This document shows positions 54,560 through 63,707 of a stretch of 64,000 nucleotides of DNA, in pieces. The stretch covers positions 62,001 to 126,000 of the forward strand of contig DAIDKV010000097.1 of assembly GCA_027449865.1 (NCBI GenBank). The letters are read 5' to 3'. Both the position numbers and the translations under genes were made by a program. How positions within the stretch are numbered: position 1 is the stretch's first letter; each line of letters opens with the position of its first letter. Below the pieces are notes generated by a model. It was not told the DNA's origin. It saw nothing but the letters and a program-made list of their open reading frames with translations, and did not search any database. This DNA comes from Planctomycetales bacterium. Lineage in GTDB: Bacteria > Planctomycetota > Planctomycetia > Isosphaerales > Isosphaeraceae.

Positions 54560-54721
54560 CAGCGGACTCCTCTTCATGGATCGAAATGCGATCGGAAGGG
54601 TGACGCTCTTGCGACAATTGTAAGGAGTGTCTGACAGATGTCAATGGTGTATCGAAGGGGACTGGAGGAGGTTTCGGAGGGGTCGAGGGGTGACGTCCGA
54701 GGCCGCGAGATCGGGAGGGGG

Positions 54722-54726
54722 TCACT
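54722..54726. repeat. Target site duplication, left copy (TCACT)
   Basis: TCACT directly abuts the left end of the transposon at 54727 and recurs at 63703-63707 just outside the right end. A 5-bp duplication is what Tn3-family transposition produces. Confidence 0.9.
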
Positions 54727-54765
54727 GGGGCGTGAGTAGCAATGGAACAGAAAACCGGCGCAAGG
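54727..54765 (+). repeat. Tn3-family terminal inverted repeat, left (IRL)
   Basis: 39 bp reading inward from GGGG, then CGTGAGTAGCAATG, then GAACAG, then AAAACCGGCGCAAGG. It resembles the Tn3 end consensus (GGGG start, central GGAAC-GAAAA). It matches IRR at 63663-63702 with few differences. Confidence 0.93.
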
Positions 54766-54769
54766 GCCG

Positions 54770-57586
54770 TCACGCTGCCAGGTCATCCAGCTCGTCGGGG
54801 TCCCGGAGCGGCCGCAGACACCCCTGCCGGATCGACTCCTTGAAGGCGAACTCATACCGGCCGAGCACGTTGATGTGGTCGAGGAGCAGTGGCGAGAGCC
54901 TTCCGACGTCCTCCGGCTGGACCAGCCCGCCGGAGGTACGGATCTGGGCCAGGGCTGCGTCCAGATACCGGGTGTTCCACAGCACCACCGCGTTGACCAC
55001 CAGGCCCAGCGCCCCGAGCTGGTCCTCCTGCCCTTCGCGGTAGCGCTGCCGCAGCTCGCCGCGCTGGCCGTGGAAGATCGCCCGCGCCACGCTGTGCCGG
55101 CTCTCGCCTCGATTGAGCTGCGTGAGGATGCGGCGGCGATACGCCTCGTCATCCAGATAGTTCAGCAGGTACAGCGTCTTGGCCACACGGCCCAGCTCGC
55201 CGATGGCCCGGCCCAGTGTCGAGGGGCGGCCGCCGCCCTGGAGACCGCGGACCAGCTCCGTGGCGCCCACCGTCCCCATCTTGAGCGAGCCGGCCACCCG
55301 CAGCAGGTCGTCCCAGTTCCACGCGATCCGAGCGATGTTGATCCGCTGGCGGGCCAGGCCGTTGAGCGCGCCGTGGTCGGCTTTGGGGTCGATCCGCCAG
55401 AACCGGGACTCGCCGAAGTCGGCCAGGCGGGGGCTGAACTGGTAACCCAGGAGCCAGAACAGGCCAAAGACCAGGTCGCTGTAGCCGGCGGTATCGCTCA
55501 TGACCTCGTGAGGCCGCAGGCCGGTCTGCTGCTCCAACAGGCACTCCAGGATGAACAGCGAGTCCCGGATCGTGCCCGGCACGACGATGGCATGGAAGCC
55601 GGTGAACTGGTCGCTGGTGAAGTTGTAGTAGGTGACACCGCGGTCGGCGTTGAAGTACTTGCTGTTGGGGTCGGCGTTGAGGGTGCGGACCGGGACGACG
55701 AACCGCAGGCCGTCGGCCGAGGCCACCTCACCACCACCCCACGCCCGGGCCAGGGGGATCTGGGCCTGGTAGTCAACCAGCCTAGCGTTGGCCCGGGTGA
55801 TGGTCTCGGCGCGAATGTAATTCTGCTGGACCCAGGAGAGCCGGCCGCGGGTCAGGGCGGGGACATCGGGTCGGACCAACGGTTCCAGCCCGATGTTGCA
55901 TGCCTCGGCCAGGAGCACGGCGCAGAGGCTCAGGTCGAGATCGGCGACCCGGCCATCACCCTCGCTGATGTGGCGGAACTCGCTGGCGAAGTTGGTCCAG
56001 GCCTGGATCTCCAGGAGGATCTCGGTCAGGTCCACACGGGGCAGCCGCGCCGTCACGCCTCGACGCAGCTCGATCAGGCTGGCGGGCTCGTCCAGCTTGT
56101 CCAGGGGCGTGAGGGTCACGACGTCGCGGCGACCGCTGTGGTCGATCCTCACGGCGGCATTAGTCGGTAGGTTGCGGGCCGTCCGCCGGTAGGCTTCGTC
56201 GAGCTGCTCGCCGAGACGTTTCAGCTCCTCGGTCGGCGTGGGCGAGCGGCCCAGCGTGCGGCAGACGCGCATCCGCACCTTCTCCCAGGCCGGCCCTTGC
56301 AGGAGCTTGGCGTGGGGATCGCCCCAGCGGCGACTGGCGGGCGCGAACAGGTCGCGGCGTCGAAGGCCGTCCTGGAGCCGCTCCAGCGCGCAGAACGTAT
56401 AGAGTCGGCGATCGAGCTCGCCCCCCGCCCCGAGCACCAGCCGTTCCCAGGCCGGCGTCAGCAGCGCCCGGGGTGCCTGGCTCATGTCGGGTCGCTTCCG
56501 GCCCTCGATGGATTTGAGGAAGTGACCGCGTCGCGCACGCGTCGGTCGGCGCAGCCCGGGTCGAGCACGACGAGGCACGCCTGGCGGAGCAGCAGTGCGG
56601 CGCGGTCCAGGTCCTTGAGCGTCCGGAGGCGGCGTTGCTGGCCGGCGTGTTCGACGCGGGCGAGCATCGCGGTGATCAACTGGTCGAGCAGGTCGAGGGC
56701 ATCGTCGAGCGCCGTGGTCTCCTCCACCTGAGCGAAGGCCAGTAAGGTCGCGTGGCGGCGTGGCGGCGGCATGCGGGCGATGGCTTGCGCGCGGGCCGTC
56801 GTAGCAGACCGGGCCAGGGCCTGGACCCGCACCGGCGGCACGCCGGGAAGGTCGATGTGGCTCACCCCGAGGGCCCGGATCTCCTGGAGTCGCTCGATGG
56901 CCCCGACCAGGCTCGCGACGCTGACGCGGGTCGGGGCGCGGCGGAGTCGCTCCAGGGGCGATTGCCGGGTGCGCTTCATCGGCGACCAGCAAGGTCTCGA
57001 GGCGAGCGATTTGTCGCGGTTTGAGGGCTCGTGCCAGGGTGTGCCACAGTCGCGTGGCCGCCCTGTCGCGGACCTGGGCGACCAGCCGGGCCAGGACGGT
57101 GACGCCCGGCAAGAGGACCTTGCGCTCGACCAGTCGGGCCGGGGCCAGGTCGAACAGGACGCTGGGGCGTTCGGTGCTGATCCAGGCCCGGTTGGCGAGC
57201 CAGCGGGTCAGGGCCGCGGCCTCGGAGCCCTGGTGGAAGTCGCGGTAGCCGTAGTGGCGGCGGATCTCGGCGGCGTGGTCCCAGCGCTTCTCCCCCGTGG
57301 CGTAGCGCCTCAAGCCCTCGGTCTCGGAGATGCCCAGTTGCCGGGCGACGTAGGCCACGACGCCCGGTGGCACCTCGGCGGGGTTGGCCAGGAACGTGCC
57401 GAGGAATCGCACCGTGCCGAGTTGCACGGCGAACCCCAGACGGTTGTGGTCTCCTCGATGCCGGTCGATCAGGCCACGGTCCTTGTCACTGAGGTGGAAG
57501 TAGCGTTCGAGCTGGGCGGGCGACGGCTCGCCCGCGTAGCGGCCGTAGCGGCGTTGCTGCTCCTCCGTCAGGAAGTCGACGGGCAT
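54770..57586 (-). pseudogene. tnpA: Tn3-family transposase tnpA with internal frameshift and probable deletion
   Basis: The frame from ATG 57586 (MPVDFLTEEQQRRYGRYAGE) stays open to 54770, giving 938 residues, but its middle is out of frame. Residues ~200-355 are nonsense rich in Pro and Arg, while the real Tn3 sequence (RQSPLERLRRAPTRVS to LRTLKDLDRAALLLRQAC) continues in another minus frame over 56520-56975. The original frame resumes at FLKSIEGRKRPDMSQAP, apparently after loss of several dozen residues that normally separate these blocks in the family. The DDE region is intact (SADGLRFVVPVR, SDTAGYSDLVFG, GQEDQLGALGL). The enzyme is therefore probably inactive, unless the shifts are sequencing errors. 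Confidence 0.85.
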
Positions 57587-57803
57587 GGCAGGTCCCCTTC
57601 CCGGAACCTGTTCCCTCACCCCGGCATCGAGTGCCAAATAGGGTTCCCCGCCCGAGGCATCCATCGAACCCGGCAAAATCATCGGCTTCCCGGAGCCGAT
57701 ACCCGGTGTCAAAATGGGTAGATCCTAATTGGCATGAACCAAGGACGCAAGCCGTGATGGCCTACCGGGGCCGTCGGCCCAGGAACGGATCGAAGGGATA
57801 GAC
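57587..57803. other. Divergent tnpA/tnpR intergenic region, probable res site
   Basis: 217 bp between divergent transposase and resolvase genes, the usual place for res and both promoters. One clear inverted repeat is present, ATCGGCT (57681-57687) with AGCCGAT (57694-57700). Subsites were not resolved by eye. Confidence 0.5.
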
Positions 57804-58391
57804 ATGATCGCCTGCTATTGCCGCGTCTCATCCGTGCGTCAGAAGACCGATAGCCAGAAGCCCGGGGTCCGGCGCTGGCTCGAGGGTAACGGAATCAATC
57901 CCTCCACCGTGGAGTGGTTCGAGGACAAGGAGACTGGGCAGACGTTGAAACGTCCCGAGTTCGATCGGCTGCAGAAGGCCATCTTCGCAGGCAGGGTCAA
58001 GACGGTCGTGGTGTGGAAGCTGGACCGGCTCTCGCGCCGCCAGCGAGACGGCGTGGACCTGCTCGCCGACTGGTGCGAGCGTGGAGTCCGAGTGGTCGCC
58101 GTGACCCAGCAGATCGACCTGAGCGGGGCGGTCGGGCGGATGGTGGCGAGCGTGTTGTTCGGGCTCGCGGAGATCGAGTCGGAATACCGGCGAGAGCGGC
58201 AAGCGGCCGGGATCGCCGTGGCGAAGGAGCGGGGCGTTTATCACGGCCGGCAGCGAGGCACGACCAAGGCCCTACCGCATCGCGCACGTGAACTTCGTGG
58301 CCGCGGTCTCACGGTACCGGAGATCGCCACCGCCTTGGGCGTCAGCCGGCGGACGGCTTTTCGATACCTAACCGCCGAGACGCCGTCGTGA
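57804..58391 (+). CDS. tnpR: Serine recombinase (Tn3 resolvase)
   Basis: 195 residues, the size of Tn3-type resolvases. The N-terminal catalytic motif IACYCRVSS holds the active Ser, and VVVWKLDRLSRRQRD with the LDRLSR motif supplies the conserved Arg residues. VASVLFGLAEIESEYRRERQ forms the long E-helix. The C-terminal HTH reads LTVPEIATALGVSRRTAFRY. It resolves cointegrates at res in the gap to tnpA. It appears intact, so the element could still be resolved if a transposase is supplied in trans. Confidence 0.92.
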   Translation: MIACYCRVSSVRQKTDSQKPGVRRWLEGNGINPSTVEWFEDKETGQTLKRPEFDRLQKAIFAGRVKTVVVWKLDRLSRRQRDGVDLLADWCERGVRVVAVTQQIDLSGAVGRMVASVLFGLAEIESEYRRERQAAGIAVAKERGVYHGRQRGTTKALPHRARELRGRGLTVPEIATALGVSRRTAFRYLTAETPS

Positions 58392-58767
58392 TCGGTTGAG
58401 TTCTTGAGCGGACCCAGGGAGTCACTTCAAGCACCACGGCCAACAATCGCTCCGTAAAGTGCTGCTGCATTTCGTGTTGCGCAGCTCCCTGTGGCCTATC
58501 GGACGAGGGCCTCTGCTGCCTCGCCTCCTTCTCCCTGGGGGGATTCCCGGCCTCGCAGTAACCGGGTGCTCCACTTTTTCTCAACCCCATGCAGCAAAAT
58601 CGCCCGCCAAGCCACTCTTGAGTAGACCGTCCGTGAGGATGGTTGAGACTTCACGATTTGCCCAAGACGCTCGGTTCCGACCTCGTCGCCGTCAATTGAC
58701 AGGTCCCATGCCAGGATCAGTATTTGTGTAGGATTCAAGCCCTGATCCACTTGGAGTGGAACCCCGC
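58392..58767. other. 376-bp gap between resolvase and sigma-factor genes
   Basis: No gene recognised. It must hold the promoter of the cargo operon. The junction between the transposition module and cargo lies here, but no clear ECF-type promoter or repeat was found by eye. Confidence 0.4.
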
Positions 58768-59316
58768 ATGACCGACGAGGAGTACGTAGGGCTCTGTCTC
58801 GGCGGGAGACCGGAGATGTTCCGCCACCTGGTCCTACGTTACGAGTCTGCCCTGTCCAAGCATCTGGCCGGACGGCTCGGCGACGAGGAAGCGGCGGCCG
58901 AGGCCGCCCAGGAGGCGATGGTGCGCGCCTATTTCGCCCTGCCCCGACTCAAGAAGGCTGGCTCCTTCTTCCCATGGTTGCTGGGCATCGCGGAGCGTGT
59001 CGCACGGGAGATGCGACGGGCACGGCGGCGTCATCCCGCCCCGCTGGACTTCGACGTGGCTTCGGCCTGGGCCGAGTCCGAGTTGCCCATGCAGGACCCT
59101 GATCCGGATCAGGAACTCGGGCGGGCGGTGGCCGAACTCCCCGAAGCGTACAAGCAGGTCATCCTGATGCGATTCTACGGGGGTCAATCCTGTGCCGAGA
59201 TCGGTTGCAACCTGGGGGTCTCGCTCGGGACGGTCACGAGCCGTCTCTCGCGGGCCTACGCCATGCTCCGGGAGGCGCTACGCTCGCAGGAGCAAGATGC
59301 GGAGGTCGAGCCATGA
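58768..59316 (+). CDS. ECF-type RNA polymerase sigma factor
   Basis: 182 residues from ATG 58768; GTG 58756 is an alternative. The sigma-2 region (about 15-85) includes MFRHLVLRYESALSKHLAGR, AAAEAAQEAMVRAYFALPRL and FPWLLGIAERVAREMRRARR. The sigma-4 region (about 115-172) has LPEAYKQVILMRFYGGQSCA-EIGCNLGVSLGTVTSRLSRA, a typical promoter -35 HTH. There is no sigma-3, as expected for ECF factors. Its stop overlaps the start of the anti-sigma gene (ATGA at 59313-59316), so the pair is co-translated. It probably drives its own operon. Confidence 0.93.
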   Translation: MTDEEYVGLCLGGRPEMFRHLVLRYESALSKHLAGRLGDEEAAAEAAQEAMVRAYFALPRLKKAGSFFPWLLGIAERVAREMRRARRRHPAPLDFDVASAWAESELPMQDPDPDQELGRAVAELPEAYKQVILMRFYGGQSCAEIGCNLGVSLGTVTSRLSRAYAMLREALRSQEQDAEVEP

Positions 59317-60806
59317 CCTGTGCCCAATGTGAGGACCTGCTCGCCGCCCGTTTCGATGGGCTGCTGGATGAGGCCGCCGAGCGCGAATTCGCGGCGCACC
59401 TGGCCGCCTGTGAAACCTGTCGGATGGCGCTGGACGAGACGCGGCGGCTTGTCCAGCGGCTGGAGGAGGACGGCCGAGGCGTCGTCCCCTCGATTGCTTC
59501 CGCGGTCATGGATCAGATCGTTCACGAACAGGCGATGCGGCTGAGGAGCGTCGGCATGATGAAACACGTGGCGAGGATCTCCATCGCGGCCGCCGTCCTC
59601 GTTGGCCTGGGTATCGCCCTCCTGTACGGGATGTCCCGGCCCATCGGCGGGCGCGTCTATGCCGCCGACCTCTCGGTGGCCCGCGAGCAGGCGGAGCGCG
59701 CGAGGAGCGCGACGTGGAAGGTCTCCTACTTCTCACGGTTCGAGGGCCCCGCAGGTGTAGGCAGCCGGTGGTTCCGGCACACGCCCATGGTTCAGCGACA
59801 CGCTTACAAGGCCCCGGGACGCTATCGTGTCGAGATGCTCAATGCAGACGGAGAGGTCGTGTACGTCCGCATCGAGGACCAGACCAGCCGGGCCGAGCTC
59901 GCCATCAGCCACAAGACCAAGACAGCGACGCTCAGATACCTGGCCGAGTCGTCGCACCCCCCGCACGGCCCGTTCGAACGATACCAGGAGATGATGCGGC
60001 GCGAGGACCTCCGGTCACTCGGGAAGGAGGAGGTCGCGGGCCGGCCGGCGAACGGCTTCCGATTCGAACTCCGCACCGGCCTGCTCGGCGAGTATCGCAG
60101 TTTCGATTTCTGGCTCGATGCCGCGACCAAGCGGCTGATCCGGTGTCAACAGCCCGGGGGCGACCTCTTCAACGCCGCCGAGATCGTTCGCGACCGCGGC
60201 TGGGATGTGTCCGAGGGTGAGACGATCGAGTACGCGGGGAAAGTCTTCAAACGTGCACCCGGGGGCGTGGGCGACCAGGGCAGCATCGCCAGCGAGATCG
60301 CGTTCGACGTCGAGCTGGACGACGCGCTGTTCTCGCTGGTGCCGCCGGCGGGGTATGCCCTCAAGGCCGTGGAGCCGCCCCCGATCGCCGAGAAGGATGT
60401 CCTTGAATTCATGGGCGTTGTCGCCGACTACTACGACAAGACGTTTCCCGATCGCATGCCCCAGTTCGCCCAGAGCTCGAAGGAGGATCTCGAACGGCTG
60501 AGGCGGGCCCAGGAGGCCGTCCGCCAGAAGCGGGGTGCGTCACCCGCCGAGGTCAAGTTGGTGGACCTGATGAACCGATGGTGGCAGACCGGCATCCCCG
60601 GCCCGGGCCCGATGCACGTCTTCATCACTCAGCAGATCACCGAGGGGAGCTGGAAGTACCTCGGGAAGGGCGTGAGGCTCGGCGACAAGGACCGGATCAT
60701 CTGCTGGTATCGGCCGAGGGGCTCGCGGACCTATCGCGTCGTCTACGGCGATCTGAGCGTCAAGGACGTCGGACCCGAAGATTTGCCCTTGCCCGTCGGG
60801 CGGTAG
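59313..60806 (+). CDS. Zinc-finger anti-sigma factor with large periplasmic domain
   Basis: 497 residues. The N-terminal anti-sigma zinc finger has His29-x3-Cys33-x2-Cys36 (HLAACETC) preceded by Cys3 and Cys6. One membrane helix follows at about 88-107 (RISIAAAVLVGLGIALLYGM). The outside ~390 residues start ADLSVAREQAERARSATWKV and contain beta-strand pairs (GRYRVEMLNADGEVVYVRIE, AGRPANGFRFELRT) reminiscent of the LolA/RseB lipoprotein-binding fold. The protein would hold the sigma factor at the membrane until an envelope signal is sensed. The sensing domain is unusually large for this class. The downstream WD40 gene starts 260 bp later. Confidence 0.88.
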   Translation: MTCAQCEDLLAARFDGLLDEAAEREFAAHLAACETCRMALDETRRLVQRLEEDGRGVVPSIASAVMDQIVHEQAMRLRSVGMMKHVARISIAAAVLVGLGIALLYGMSRPIGGRVYAADLSVAREQAERARSATWKVSYFSRFEGPAGVGSRWFRHTPMVQRHAYKAPGRYRVEMLNADGEVVYVRIEDQTSRAELAISHKTKTATLRYLAESSHPPHGPFERYQEMMRREDLRSLGKEEVAGRPANGFRFELRTGLLGEYRSFDFWLDAATKRLIRCQQPGGDLFNAAEIVRDRGWDVSEGETIEYAGKVFKRAPGGVGDQGSIASEIAFDVELDDALFSLVPPAGYALKAVEPPPIAEKDVLEFMGVVADYYDKTFPDRMPQFAQSSKEDLERLRRAQEAVRQKRGASPAEVKLVDLMNRWWQTGIPGPGPMHVFITQQITEGSWKYLGKGVRLGDKDRIICWYRPRGSRTYRVVYGDLSVKDVGPEDLPLPVGR

Positions 60807-61066
60807 CCCCTCGGGCGGGGGAGTCGTTCCCCCGGCCGCTCGTCGGCCGGCGAGGCATCCTCACCGGATCCCGCCGCCGAGGCGTGATATCCGTGATCGA
60901 GATGAGCCCACGCGCCGCCAGCGTCCAGCCGGGGGTGTCGACCGCTCGTGCGCGAGTCGCGGCGATCGGGCAGTGGAGAGCGTGGATTGCGTGCGGGTGT
61001 ACGACGGCACGCCGGGTCGGTCCCGATCGAGATGTCGCCAGCCTTTTAGATCTTTGGAGACTTCAA

Positions 61067-62191
61067 ATGACGACAGGATTGATGTTGACCGCTGCGCTGC
61101 TGGCCGTCCAGACCGGAGGGGGCGAGCCCCAGCCGGTCATCCTGAAGGCTGACCAGGCGGTCTACCGCCTGGCATGGAGGCCCGACGGCAAGGAGATCGC
61201 CGTCGTCGGGGTTGGTTTCGATCGGAAGGCGAAAGCGATGAAATGCACGCTCGCGTACTGGGACGCGGAGAAGCGGAAAGTCCGCCGGTCCCTCGACGTG
61301 GAGAGCACGATCCGGTTCGAATCGATTTCTTACTCCCCCGACGGGAAGATGCTCGCCGCCGCCGCCATGCGACCTGCGGGCAAGTTCGCCTATTCGGTGC
61401 GGTTGATCGACGCGGAAACGGGAGCGACGAGGAGGACAGTCCCGCTCCGGGGGAGCGTGCGGAGTGTGGCCTATTCGCCCGACGGCAAGGCGGTGGCGAT
61501 CGGCGGGCAAGAGATCCCGAAGCAGCTCACAGGAGTCCCGCTCGTCCGCACGGTGCAGCTCTGGGACGTCGAAAAGGAGAAGACGGCTCGAGAAATCCGG
61601 CAGGAACTCCGCATCGATGACCTCGATAAGTCCGGTCATCTCGATGGCCTCCGAGACCTCCGATTCTCACCCGACGGCAAGCTCCTAGCCGCCGCGGACG
61701 TCGATTTCCGCGTGCGATTGATCGACGTCCAGACCGGAGCCGTGCGGCAGGCGCTCGCGGGCCACACCGAGGTCATCCTCGGGCTCGCCTTCTCCCCGGA
61801 TAGCAGGTGGCTGGCGACCGCCGGGTTTGACGGGACAGCGAGGATCTGGGACGTGCAGACGGGCAAGGAGATCCGGACGCTGCAGGGGAATAAGGGCCAG
61901 GTCTGGAGGATCGACTTCTCCCCGGACGGTCGGTTCCTGGCCACGGGCGGCATCGTCGTCGCGGACGGTGCGGGGAGCGGTGAAGTGATTCTCTGGGATG
62001 CCCACTCCGGGCAGCCAAGGCGGACCTTGCCGGTCGAGAAGGGGAGCCTCGGGACACCGGCCTTCTCGCCGGACAACCAGGTCCTCGCCGTCGGTGTGGG
62101 GACAGAGCAAGGCGCCGGAGCGATTCAACTCTGGCCGCTCCGCGACCTCCTGCCGGAGCGTCGAGCGTCGAGCAAAGGAGGTAACCGATGA
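61067..62191 (+). CDS. WD40 repeat protein
   Basis: 374 residues from ATG 61067 with GGAG eight bases upstream; longer open frame to 60578 overlaps the anti-sigma gene and is not coding. A weak hydrophobic N terminus (LMLTAALLAVQTGG) could be a signal peptide. At least five WD40 blades are visible by their SPDGK turns and WD ends, e.g. SYSPDGKMLAAAAM, AYSPDGKAVAIGG, RFSPDGKLLAAADVD, AFSPDSRWLATAGFDGTARIWDVQTGKEI and FSPDGRFLATGG. Such propellers usually serve as protein-binding platforms. Its stop overlaps the next gene (ATGA at 62188). Confidence 0.9.
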   Translation: MTTGLMLTAALLAVQTGGGEPQPVILKADQAVYRLAWRPDGKEIAVVGVGFDRKAKAMKCTLAYWDAEKRKVRRSLDVESTIRFESISYSPDGKMLAAAAMRPAGKFAYSVRLIDAETGATRRTVPLRGSVRSVAYSPDGKAVAIGGQEIPKQLTGVPLVRTVQLWDVEKEKTAREIRQELRIDDLDKSGHLDGLRDLRFSPDGKLLAAADVDFRVRLIDVQTGAVRQALAGHTEVILGLAFSPDSRWLATAGFDGTARIWDVQTGKEIRTLQGNKGQVWRIDFSPDGRFLATGGIVVADGAGSGEVILWDAHSGQPRRTLPVEKGSLGTPAFSPDNQVLAVGVGTEQGAGAIQLWPLRDLLPERRASSKGGNR

Positions 62192-63543
62192 GAATCCGAT
62201 CGGTCTCTGCGCACATCCGGCTGGCCCTGGTGACCGCCCTGGGCATCCTTGGCCTGGGAAGGCCCGGGGTGGCGCAGGTCGCCGAGCCGGCCGCGAGGAT
62301 CACCGTCGGGCCGGCGACGCAGGTGAGCAAGGCTCATGAGAAGCGGCCGCACGCCGAGGTGATCCTCGCCGCCGAACCCGGCGAACGCGGTCGTCTGCTG
62401 GCCGGCTCGATGGTTCTGGACCTGGGAACGGGAAGCTCCGTGGTTGCCTACGCGTCCAGCGACGGCGGAAAGACATGGGGACTGGCTCTCGAGAAGAAGG
62501 CTGAGAAAGGGGGACCCTCTTACTTCGACCCGGCCGTTGCCTTCGATCCGGACGGGGTGGCCTACTTCGCAGCCTATAGACCCGGCCTCGAAACCGACGT
62601 GCGACGCATGCCCCAACCCGCCCTGGAGATCACTTCCTCCCGCGATGGCGGCCGCACATGGGCGGCGCCCTTTGTCGCCGAGAATCGTGCGGACCGTCCC
62701 TTTCTTGTCGTGGACTGCACCAATGGTCGGTTTCGAGGCCGGGTCTATTGCACCGGGACTTCCGGGGGGCTTGTCGTTTGGCGGTCACGCGACGGGGCCA
62801 GGACTTTCAATCCGCCCACCCGCCTGGCCTGCAAGGGCTCCACTCAAGGAAGGACCTTCGGCCAAGGCGTGGTGCTCTCCGACGGCACGCTCGTCGTGCC
62901 GTATCGCGTGCTGACCAAGGCGACCGACCAGCAATGGTCGCTCCGGGTCCAGAGGTCGGACCAGGGCGGGGAGTCTTTTCTCGGGGAGCAGTCCCTGCGC
63001 GACTACCGCGCGGGCGTCGGTGACCTCCCCATCATGGCGGTGGACCAGGGGAGCGGTGCCTTCAGGGACCGCCTGTACCTGGTTTGGTCCGAGCGGACCG
63101 AGGCCGGGCTGCGCGTCATGCTGACGCTTTCCAAGGACAAGGGGGTGAATTGGTCTGAGCCTACGGCCCTCAGCGATGAGGCCGGCGTTGCCGGGGGAGA
63201 GGAAGCAGCCAGGCGCCGCGCCTTCCTGCCGTCGGTCGCGGTGAACCGGGCGGGCGTCGTCGCCGTCTCATGGTACGACGGCACGCTCCGCGGAGGGACG
63301 CTCCGCAGCCACGTCCGCCTCCGGGCCTCACTCGACGGCGGGGACACCTGGCTGCCGAGCGTCCACGTCACCGAGTTCGTCGGCCAAGGCGACCCCGAGG
63401 TGGCATCGACGCCGGGTTCCGAGAGCTGGTTAGGCGACACGGCGGGCCTGGCGGCCGACGCCTCGGGCGGGTTTCACCCGCTGTGGATCGACAACCGAAC
63501 TGGAACGAGACAGGTGTTCACAACCACGGTGATTATCAAATAG
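62188..63543 (+). CDS. Secreted Asp-box (sialidase-like) beta-propeller protein
   Basis: 451 residues. The signal peptide (about 1-30) is IRLALVTALGILGLGRPGVAQ with an A-x-A-like cut near 29. Four Asp-box repeats are seen: SSDGGKTWG, SRDGGRTWA, SKDKGVNWS and SLDGGDTWL, typical of the sialidase/BNR propeller. Conserved sialidase residues such as the RIP motif and catalytic Tyr/Glu pair are not obvious, so enzyme activity is uncertain. It ends 120 bp before the right inverted repeat and is the last cargo gene. It shares the Asp-box theme with the giant protein at 39745 but not its other modules. Confidence 0.85.
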   Translation: MRIRSVSAHIRLALVTALGILGLGRPGVAQVAEPAARITVGPATQVSKAHEKRPHAEVILAAEPGERGRLLAGSMVLDLGTGSSVVAYASSDGGKTWGLALEKKAEKGGPSYFDPAVAFDPDGVAYFAAYRPGLETDVRRMPQPALEITSSRDGGRTWAAPFVAENRADRPFLVVDCTNGRFRGRVYCTGTSGGLVVWRSRDGARTFNPPTRLACKGSTQGRTFGQGVVLSDGTLVVPYRVLTKATDQQWSLRVQRSDQGGESFLGEQSLRDYRAGVGDLPIMAVDQGSGAFRDRLYLVWSERTEAGLRVMLTLSKDKGVNWSEPTALSDEAGVAGGEEAARRRAFLPSVAVNRAGVVAVSWYDGTLRGGTLRSHVRLRASLDGGDTWLPSVHVTEFVGQGDPEVASTPGSESWLGDTAGLAADASGGFHPLWIDNRTGTRQVFTTTVIIK

Positions 63544-63662
63544 ATGAAAATCGGCACTCTCTTTTCGGACCTCGCTCAGGAGGGTGGCTCGCACGTCCAA
63601 GGGGCCGGCGTCCAGCACAACCCGAACCCCGAAGGTCCAGCGACCTGCGGGCACCAGGAGGG
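63544..63662. other. Non-coding strip between cargo and IRR
   Basis: About 120 bp with no gene. A minus-strand frame starting in the inverted repeat (63687) runs through it but has no support. Confidence 0.5.
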
Positions 63663-63702
63663 CCTTGCGCCGGTTTTTGTGGTTCATTGCTACTCACGGG
63701 CC
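63663..63702 (-). repeat. Tn3-family terminal inverted repeat, right (IRR)
   Basis: 40 bp. Read inward from the right end it gives GGCC, then CGTGAGTAGCAATG, a variable middle, and AAAACCGGCGCAAGG, the same conserved blocks as IRL at 54727-54765. Outside it lies TCACT. Confidence 0.92.
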
Positions 63703-63707
63703 TCACT
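63703..63707. repeat. Target site duplication, right copy (TCACT)
   Basis: Identical to the 5 bp at 54722-54726. Read on the minus strand it is AGTGA and contains the TGA stop of the flanking gene. Confidence 0.9.

Follow-up and report, generated by a model that had tools for sequence, protein, structure and literature searches.

A Tn3-family transposon with a disrupted transposase gene carries an ECF sigma/anti-sigma gene pair in a planctomycete genome

Can a transposon carry a whole regulatory switch, namely an extracytoplasmic-function (ECF) sigma factor together with its membrane anti-sigma factor, and does such carriage amount to the spread of regulation between species? The question is raised by a locus of a Planctomycetales bacterium (hereafter G000), whose genome of 8.5 Mb is assembled in 278 contigs. 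We analysed a window of 64,000 nucleotides (G000:C97:62001-126000), to which all coordinates below refer unless a contig is named.

Ends of the element and empty sites

The element is delimited by the following features.

54727-63702, 8,976 bp: Tn3-family element, bounded by 42-bp inverted repeats and TCACT direct repeats
54722..54726, no strand: left copy of the target-site duplication, TCACT, which the uninterrupted alleles of G003 and G001 have only once
54727..54768, plus strand: left inverted repeat (IRL), GGGGCGTGAGTAGCAATGGAACAGAAAACCGGCGCAAGGGCC, with the same core as the cyanobacterial Tn3 elements L039 and L046
63661..63702, minus strand: right inverted repeat (IRR), a 42-bp arm reading GGCCCGTGAGTAGCAATGAACCACAAAAACCGGCGCAAGGCC on the minus strand
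63703..63707, no strand: right copy of the target-site duplication, TCACT, which includes the stop codon of the flanking gene and leaves it intact

The two arms share the unbroken cores CGTGAGTAGCAATG and AAAACCGGCGCAA, and their alignment scored 34 of 42, whereas none of 3,000 random 42-mers of the window scored above 22. They had been called near-identical in the initial annotation, which overstates an actual identity of approximately 80-85%. Their features are those of Tn3-family ends (~38-40 bp, a GG(GG) start and relatedness to other Tn3 ends), and the pattern GGGG...GGAACAGAAAACC...AAG recurs in the ends of Tn3 elements from cyanobacteria and alphaproteobacteria. The 5-bp duplication typical of the family is present as TCACT on both sides. 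In the G000 genome, exact matches to the 13-bp core of the repeats occur only at the two ends of the element, and two further sites match it with one mismatch. A lone Tn3-type end at G000:C31:35388-35409 (L184) matches 23 of 26 core positions, has no tnpA in its vicinity and lies beside another transposase-like ORF; it is a probable relic of an older element.

Empty sites were identified in two congeners, G003 and G001, which align across the joined flanks of the window with a single TCACT. These two alleles confirm a discrete insertion, and the ends first proposed at 54727 and 63702 hold to the base, as judged from the inverted repeats, the TCACT duplication and the empty sites. No locus with the four cargo genes but devoid of inverted repeats was seen in the genomes searched. 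One might argue that a pair of repeats surrounds a resident gene cluster by chance, with no transposon insertion at all, and the imperfect match of the two arms is the single observation in its favour. This reading is refuted by the empty-site alleles, and the target-site duplication, the presence of tnpA and tnpR inside the ends and the match of the repeats to Tn3-family ends elsewhere also contradict it; its likelihood is close to nil. The empty sites prove the outer ends only, and the cargo could in principle have joined a Tn3 element already resident at this place.

The target of the insertion lies at the stop codon of a gene for a 214-residue protein, which extends from 63703 on the minus strand and has orthologues 94% and 93% identical in G003 and G001, respectively. 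This gene remained intact because the TCACT duplication restores its stop codon. On the left side, the unbroken alignment with the congeners covers only 22 bp, and homology returns at ~80% identity beyond an extra segment. The latter, of approximately 710 bp, is found in G003:C42 (L124) and G001:C450 (L125), 22 bp to the left of the insertion point (window 54703-54726), and is missing in G000. It harbours a gene that we take to be DUF4058-like, and it reflects either a separate deletion in G000 or an insertion in G003 and G001.

Transposition genes

The left part of the element comprises the transposition functions.

54770..57586, minus strand: tnpA pseudogene for a Tn3-family DDE transposase, starting MPVDFLTEEQ (Pfam, NCBIfam and frame map)
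57587..57803, no strand: tnpA-tnpR intergenic region, 217 bp, with three putative 28-bp res-like dyads
57804..58391, plus strand: tnpR, serine resolvase with an N-terminal catalytic domain and a C-terminal HTH (Pfam PF00239, 8e-33)

Divergent tnpA and tnpR genes with a res region between them define the Tn3 layout (PMC7157771), and this arrangement is found here, with a res-like region between the two genes and the cargo located behind tnpR. The putative res-like dyads (57632-57659, 57671-57698 and 57707-57734) show weak half-site symmetry (4-6 of 10). The proposal of a Tn3-family transposon with sigma/anti-sigma cargo is supported on the basis of its domains, inverted repeats, target-site duplication, layout and two empty-site alleles.

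TnpA harbours the DDE_Tnp_Tn3 (PF01526, 4e-146) and DUF4158 (PF13700, 3e-57) domains, scores above the cut-off of the NCBIfam transpos_Tn3 profile (NF033527) and is a homologue of the structurally characterised Tn4430 transposase. A frame map nevertheless revealed a disruption of the gene that had escaped the initial annotation: a frameshift near 56980 and the loss of ~65 codons near 56522 leave three segments in two frames. Relative to an intact homologue, the N-terminal ~205 residues are in one frame and residues ~206-354 in another, residues 355-419 (~65) are missing, and the C-terminal catalytic part is back in the first frame. Since the frame is broken, no full TnpA can be produced from this copy, and the element is non-autonomous unless helped in trans.

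TnpA is 57-71% identical to Tn3-family transposases, the best match (71%) being found in Iningainema, and at most 42% identical to those of other genomes of the same family as G000. It belongs to a clade of cyanobacterial, Obscuribacterales and Bryobacterales elements (support 0.84), within which the finer branching is unsupported. The closest relatives of TnpR are serine recombinases of the host's own family (L169 and L170), with 65% identity in G014 and 60-77% in G021, where the copy is split; its identity to the resolvases of TnpA's relatives does not exceed 38%. This suggests that tnpA and tnpR have different histories.

Cargo genes, candidate promoter and relatives

Behind tnpR, a candidate promoter and four genes, all with intact ORFs, fill the rest of the element.

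58591..58615, plus strand: GCAGCAA-N15-CAC, a candidate autoregulated promoter of ECF type, also present ahead of the G063 and G032 sigma orthologues
58768..59316, plus strand: ECF sigma factor (Sigma70_r2 and Sigma70_r4_2; TIGR02937 sigma70-ECF above cut-off)
59313..60806, plus strand: membrane anti-sigma factor (zf-HC2, Pfam PF13490; homologue alignment and hydropathy), with a 4-bp overlap with the sigma gene
61067..62191, plus strand: WD40-repeat protein (Pfam WD40, 2e-37), with a weak, possible short signal sequence
62188..63543, plus strand: BNR/Asp-box protein, a sialidase-like propeller (Pfam BNR_2, 2e-13), with a 4-bp overlap with the WD40 gene

Pfam searches bear out the identities initially assigned to these genes. 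In the sigma factor, regions 2 and 4 are the only ones present, and the features of an ECF sigma factor paired with a class I anti-sigma factor are present, making the two proteins predicted partners. The anti-sigma protein harbours the HLAACETC (Hx3Cx2C) motif in its zf-HC2 domain, one transmembrane segment at about residues 86-108 and a conserved C-terminal extracytoplasmic domain. A LolA/RseB-like fold was considered for this last domain and was not confirmed, with no significant hit in a PDB profile search (best E value 0.14) and a mean pLDDT of 38 for a single-sequence AlphaFold model. Hydropathy analysis indicates a hydrophobic N-terminus for the Asp-box protein. The regulatory operon of the initial annotation stands as an overlapping sigma/anti-sigma pair; a single four-gene operon is not established, as 260 bp separate this pair from the WD40/Asp-box pair. 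No Rfam match was found, and the cargo has a GC3 of 0.80-0.85, compared with 0.84 for a nearby host gene.

Orthologues of the sigma and anti-sigma genes are found in the same order in G063 (57% and 45% identity) and G032 (51% and 44%), and an anti-sigma orthologue (45%) lies at a contig end in G011. In the stretches read beside the orthologues in these three genomes, there is no tnpA, tnpR, WD40 or Asp-box gene. The distribution of the pair is sporadic. For the Asp-box gene, we identified one moderate relative, in G027 (39%), and no match in the sampled genomes of the phylum at E 1e-30. The plasmid collection yielded no relative of the anti-sigma factor and only distant Asp-box proteins (25-30%). 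TnpA is closest to those of cyanobacterial Tn3 elements, whereas the cargo genes seem to be native to the family of the host. Judging from these comparisons, the cargo is of host-family type, and either it was assembled from two or more sources, or its parts stayed together here and were lost separately in other genomes.

The promoter that was to be sought upstream of 58768 has a candidate at 58591-58615, a prediction drawn from a comparison of three orthologues. The motif was found post hoc by comparing the three sigma upstream regions, which are otherwise poorly alike; the element has a single occurrence, as has the upstream region of each orthologous sigma gene (G063 and G032), with identical spacing. 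The motif is rare, the 8.5-Mb genome containing 12 matches, against 33 for the reversed control, and most of the 12 sites are within genes or away from gene starts, such that we infer no wider regulon. The motif is absent from the 260-bp gap before the WD40 gene, and scans for sigma-70 promoters and terminators gave nothing above chance. Its sharing with the orthologues suggests that the switch may have moved with its own autoregulated promoter.

The element is present in one copy in G000, and no other element bearing this cargo was detected in 45 genomes of the family, 392 genomes of the phylum or the plasmid collection. No exact match to the 22-bp core of the inverted repeats was found in viral contigs. 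Ends resembling these repeats are present in four of the 392 phylum genomes: G000, G017 (at contig ends), G189 (at a contig end) and G230, the last with neither a second end nor transposition genes. In G017, which belongs to another genus of the family, they are located at the starts of contigs (C108:311-332 and C202:481-502; L195 and L196). The C202 end matches IRL at 95% identity over 39 bp; the sequence beyond it is unrelated and includes a frame for a small membrane protein. This end hints at sister elements with other cargo, though it is truncated.

Origin of the cargo and comparison with known systems

Very probably, a Tn3-family unit transposon took up the sigma/anti-sigma pair with its own promoter, and the WD40/Asp-box pair, behind tnpR, inserted at TCACT and lost tnpA function. 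The insertion would have occurred in the line of the G000 species, whereas the G003 and G001 lines did not receive it, and the mechanism was presumably replicative transposition and cointegrate resolution, by analogy with other Tn3 elements. The loss of tnpA may have preceded or followed it; in the former case, a related transposase would have acted in trans. From what is known of class I families, the anti-sigma factor is expected to keep the ECF sigma factor at the membrane until an envelope signal frees it. The freed sigma factor would then use the GCAGCAA-N15-CAC promoter to transcribe the operon that encodes it, thereby amplifying its own expression, and the propeller genes would perhaps be transcribed by read-through from the same promoter. 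The cargo may still be working, though the transposon is non-autonomous.

Whether the cargo matters to the transposon is a separate issue. Compatible with this capture scenario, and differing from it on that issue only, is the idea that host-family genes were trapped as chance passengers with no selection for mobility, towards which we lean slightly. With 38 sigma matches in G000 and 133 WD40 candidates at first look, such genomes are rich in ECF sigma and WD40 genes, an abundance that fits a planctomycete host, and therefore a 5-kb cargo would fairly often include one; the decay of tnpA points in the same direction. A random catch is harder to reconcile with a complete gene pair, an upstream motif and intact ORFs, or with the propeller genes not being beside the pair in G063 and G032, which indicates that it was not taken up as one simple block of the chromosome like those seen there. 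The capture of one among tens of ECF genes is not very improbable. Given the broken transposase gene and the lack of a second copy with this cargo, we regard the element as ordinary in kind and its cargo as unusual.

The opposite view is that the cargo forms a regulatory module in active movement, passed from species to species for the selectable response that an ECF switch under its own promoter provides; in our opinion, this is unlikely. It could account for the self-contained pair with its conserved upstream motif, for the sporadic distribution of the pair and for the G017 end, 95% identical over 39 bp in another genus and next to different sequence. However, tnpA is broken, the element is in single copy, the anti-sigma factor appears in no plasmid record, and the orthologous pairs lie outside Tn3 elements and, at just 44-57% identity, give no sign of a recent transfer. 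The horizontal spread of regulation read into this locus at the outset is therefore not borne out by one copy with a dead tnpA, no same-cargo element elsewhere and orthologous pairs outside Tn3 elements. Such spread is possible, and carriage on a transposon is shown once: a single insertion attests to the cargo and the transposon moving together, with no second copy bearing the cargo. Still less do we favour the general proposition that planctomycete Tn3 transposons are vehicles for the spread of self-contained ECF sigma/anti-sigma switches between species, each switch bringing along its promoter and the secreted propellers that it targets.

Our preferred reading, the capture of the two gene pairs by a unit transposon, provides a base-precise case, with empty-site alleles, of a transposon-borne alternative sigma factor with its regulator and probable promoter. 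It offers a test case for how bacteria with tens of ECF sigma factors per genome acquire new ones, and extends the list of Tn3-family cargoes beyond resistance, catabolism and virulence. ECF sigma factors are known on plasmids, for example in the cnr nickel system. In the literature searched, which takes in only a minority of subscription papers, no Tn3 element with a full ECF sigma/anti-sigma pair was found. TnAs1, a Tn3-family element of Aeromonas salmonicida, includes in its cargo a gene related to the anti-sigma factor ChrR; it differs in transposon lineage and cargo, and its description does not mention an ECF sigma/anti-sigma pair accompanied by propellers (PMC5756416).

With Tn3 itself, the type element of the Tn3 subgroup, our element shares the divergent tnpA and tnpR genes, with a putative res region between them here, the GG-starting inverted repeats of ~40 bp and the 5-bp target-site duplication. 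Unlike Tn3, whose cargo is a beta-lactamase gene, it harbours sigma/anti-sigma and propeller genes and a broken tnpA. The cyanobacterial Tn3 elements of Iningainema (L038), Gloeocapsopsis (L039) and Calothrix (L046) have TnpA proteins 64-71% identical to this one and nearly the same core of the inverted repeats, but these three, as well as L042 and L045, have an apparent tyrosine recombinase (read by eye) and are devoid of such cargo. The G063 and G032 pairs, from the same family as the host, are orthologous to the cargo pair and have the same gene order and upstream motif, but without tnpA, tnpR or propeller genes alongside.
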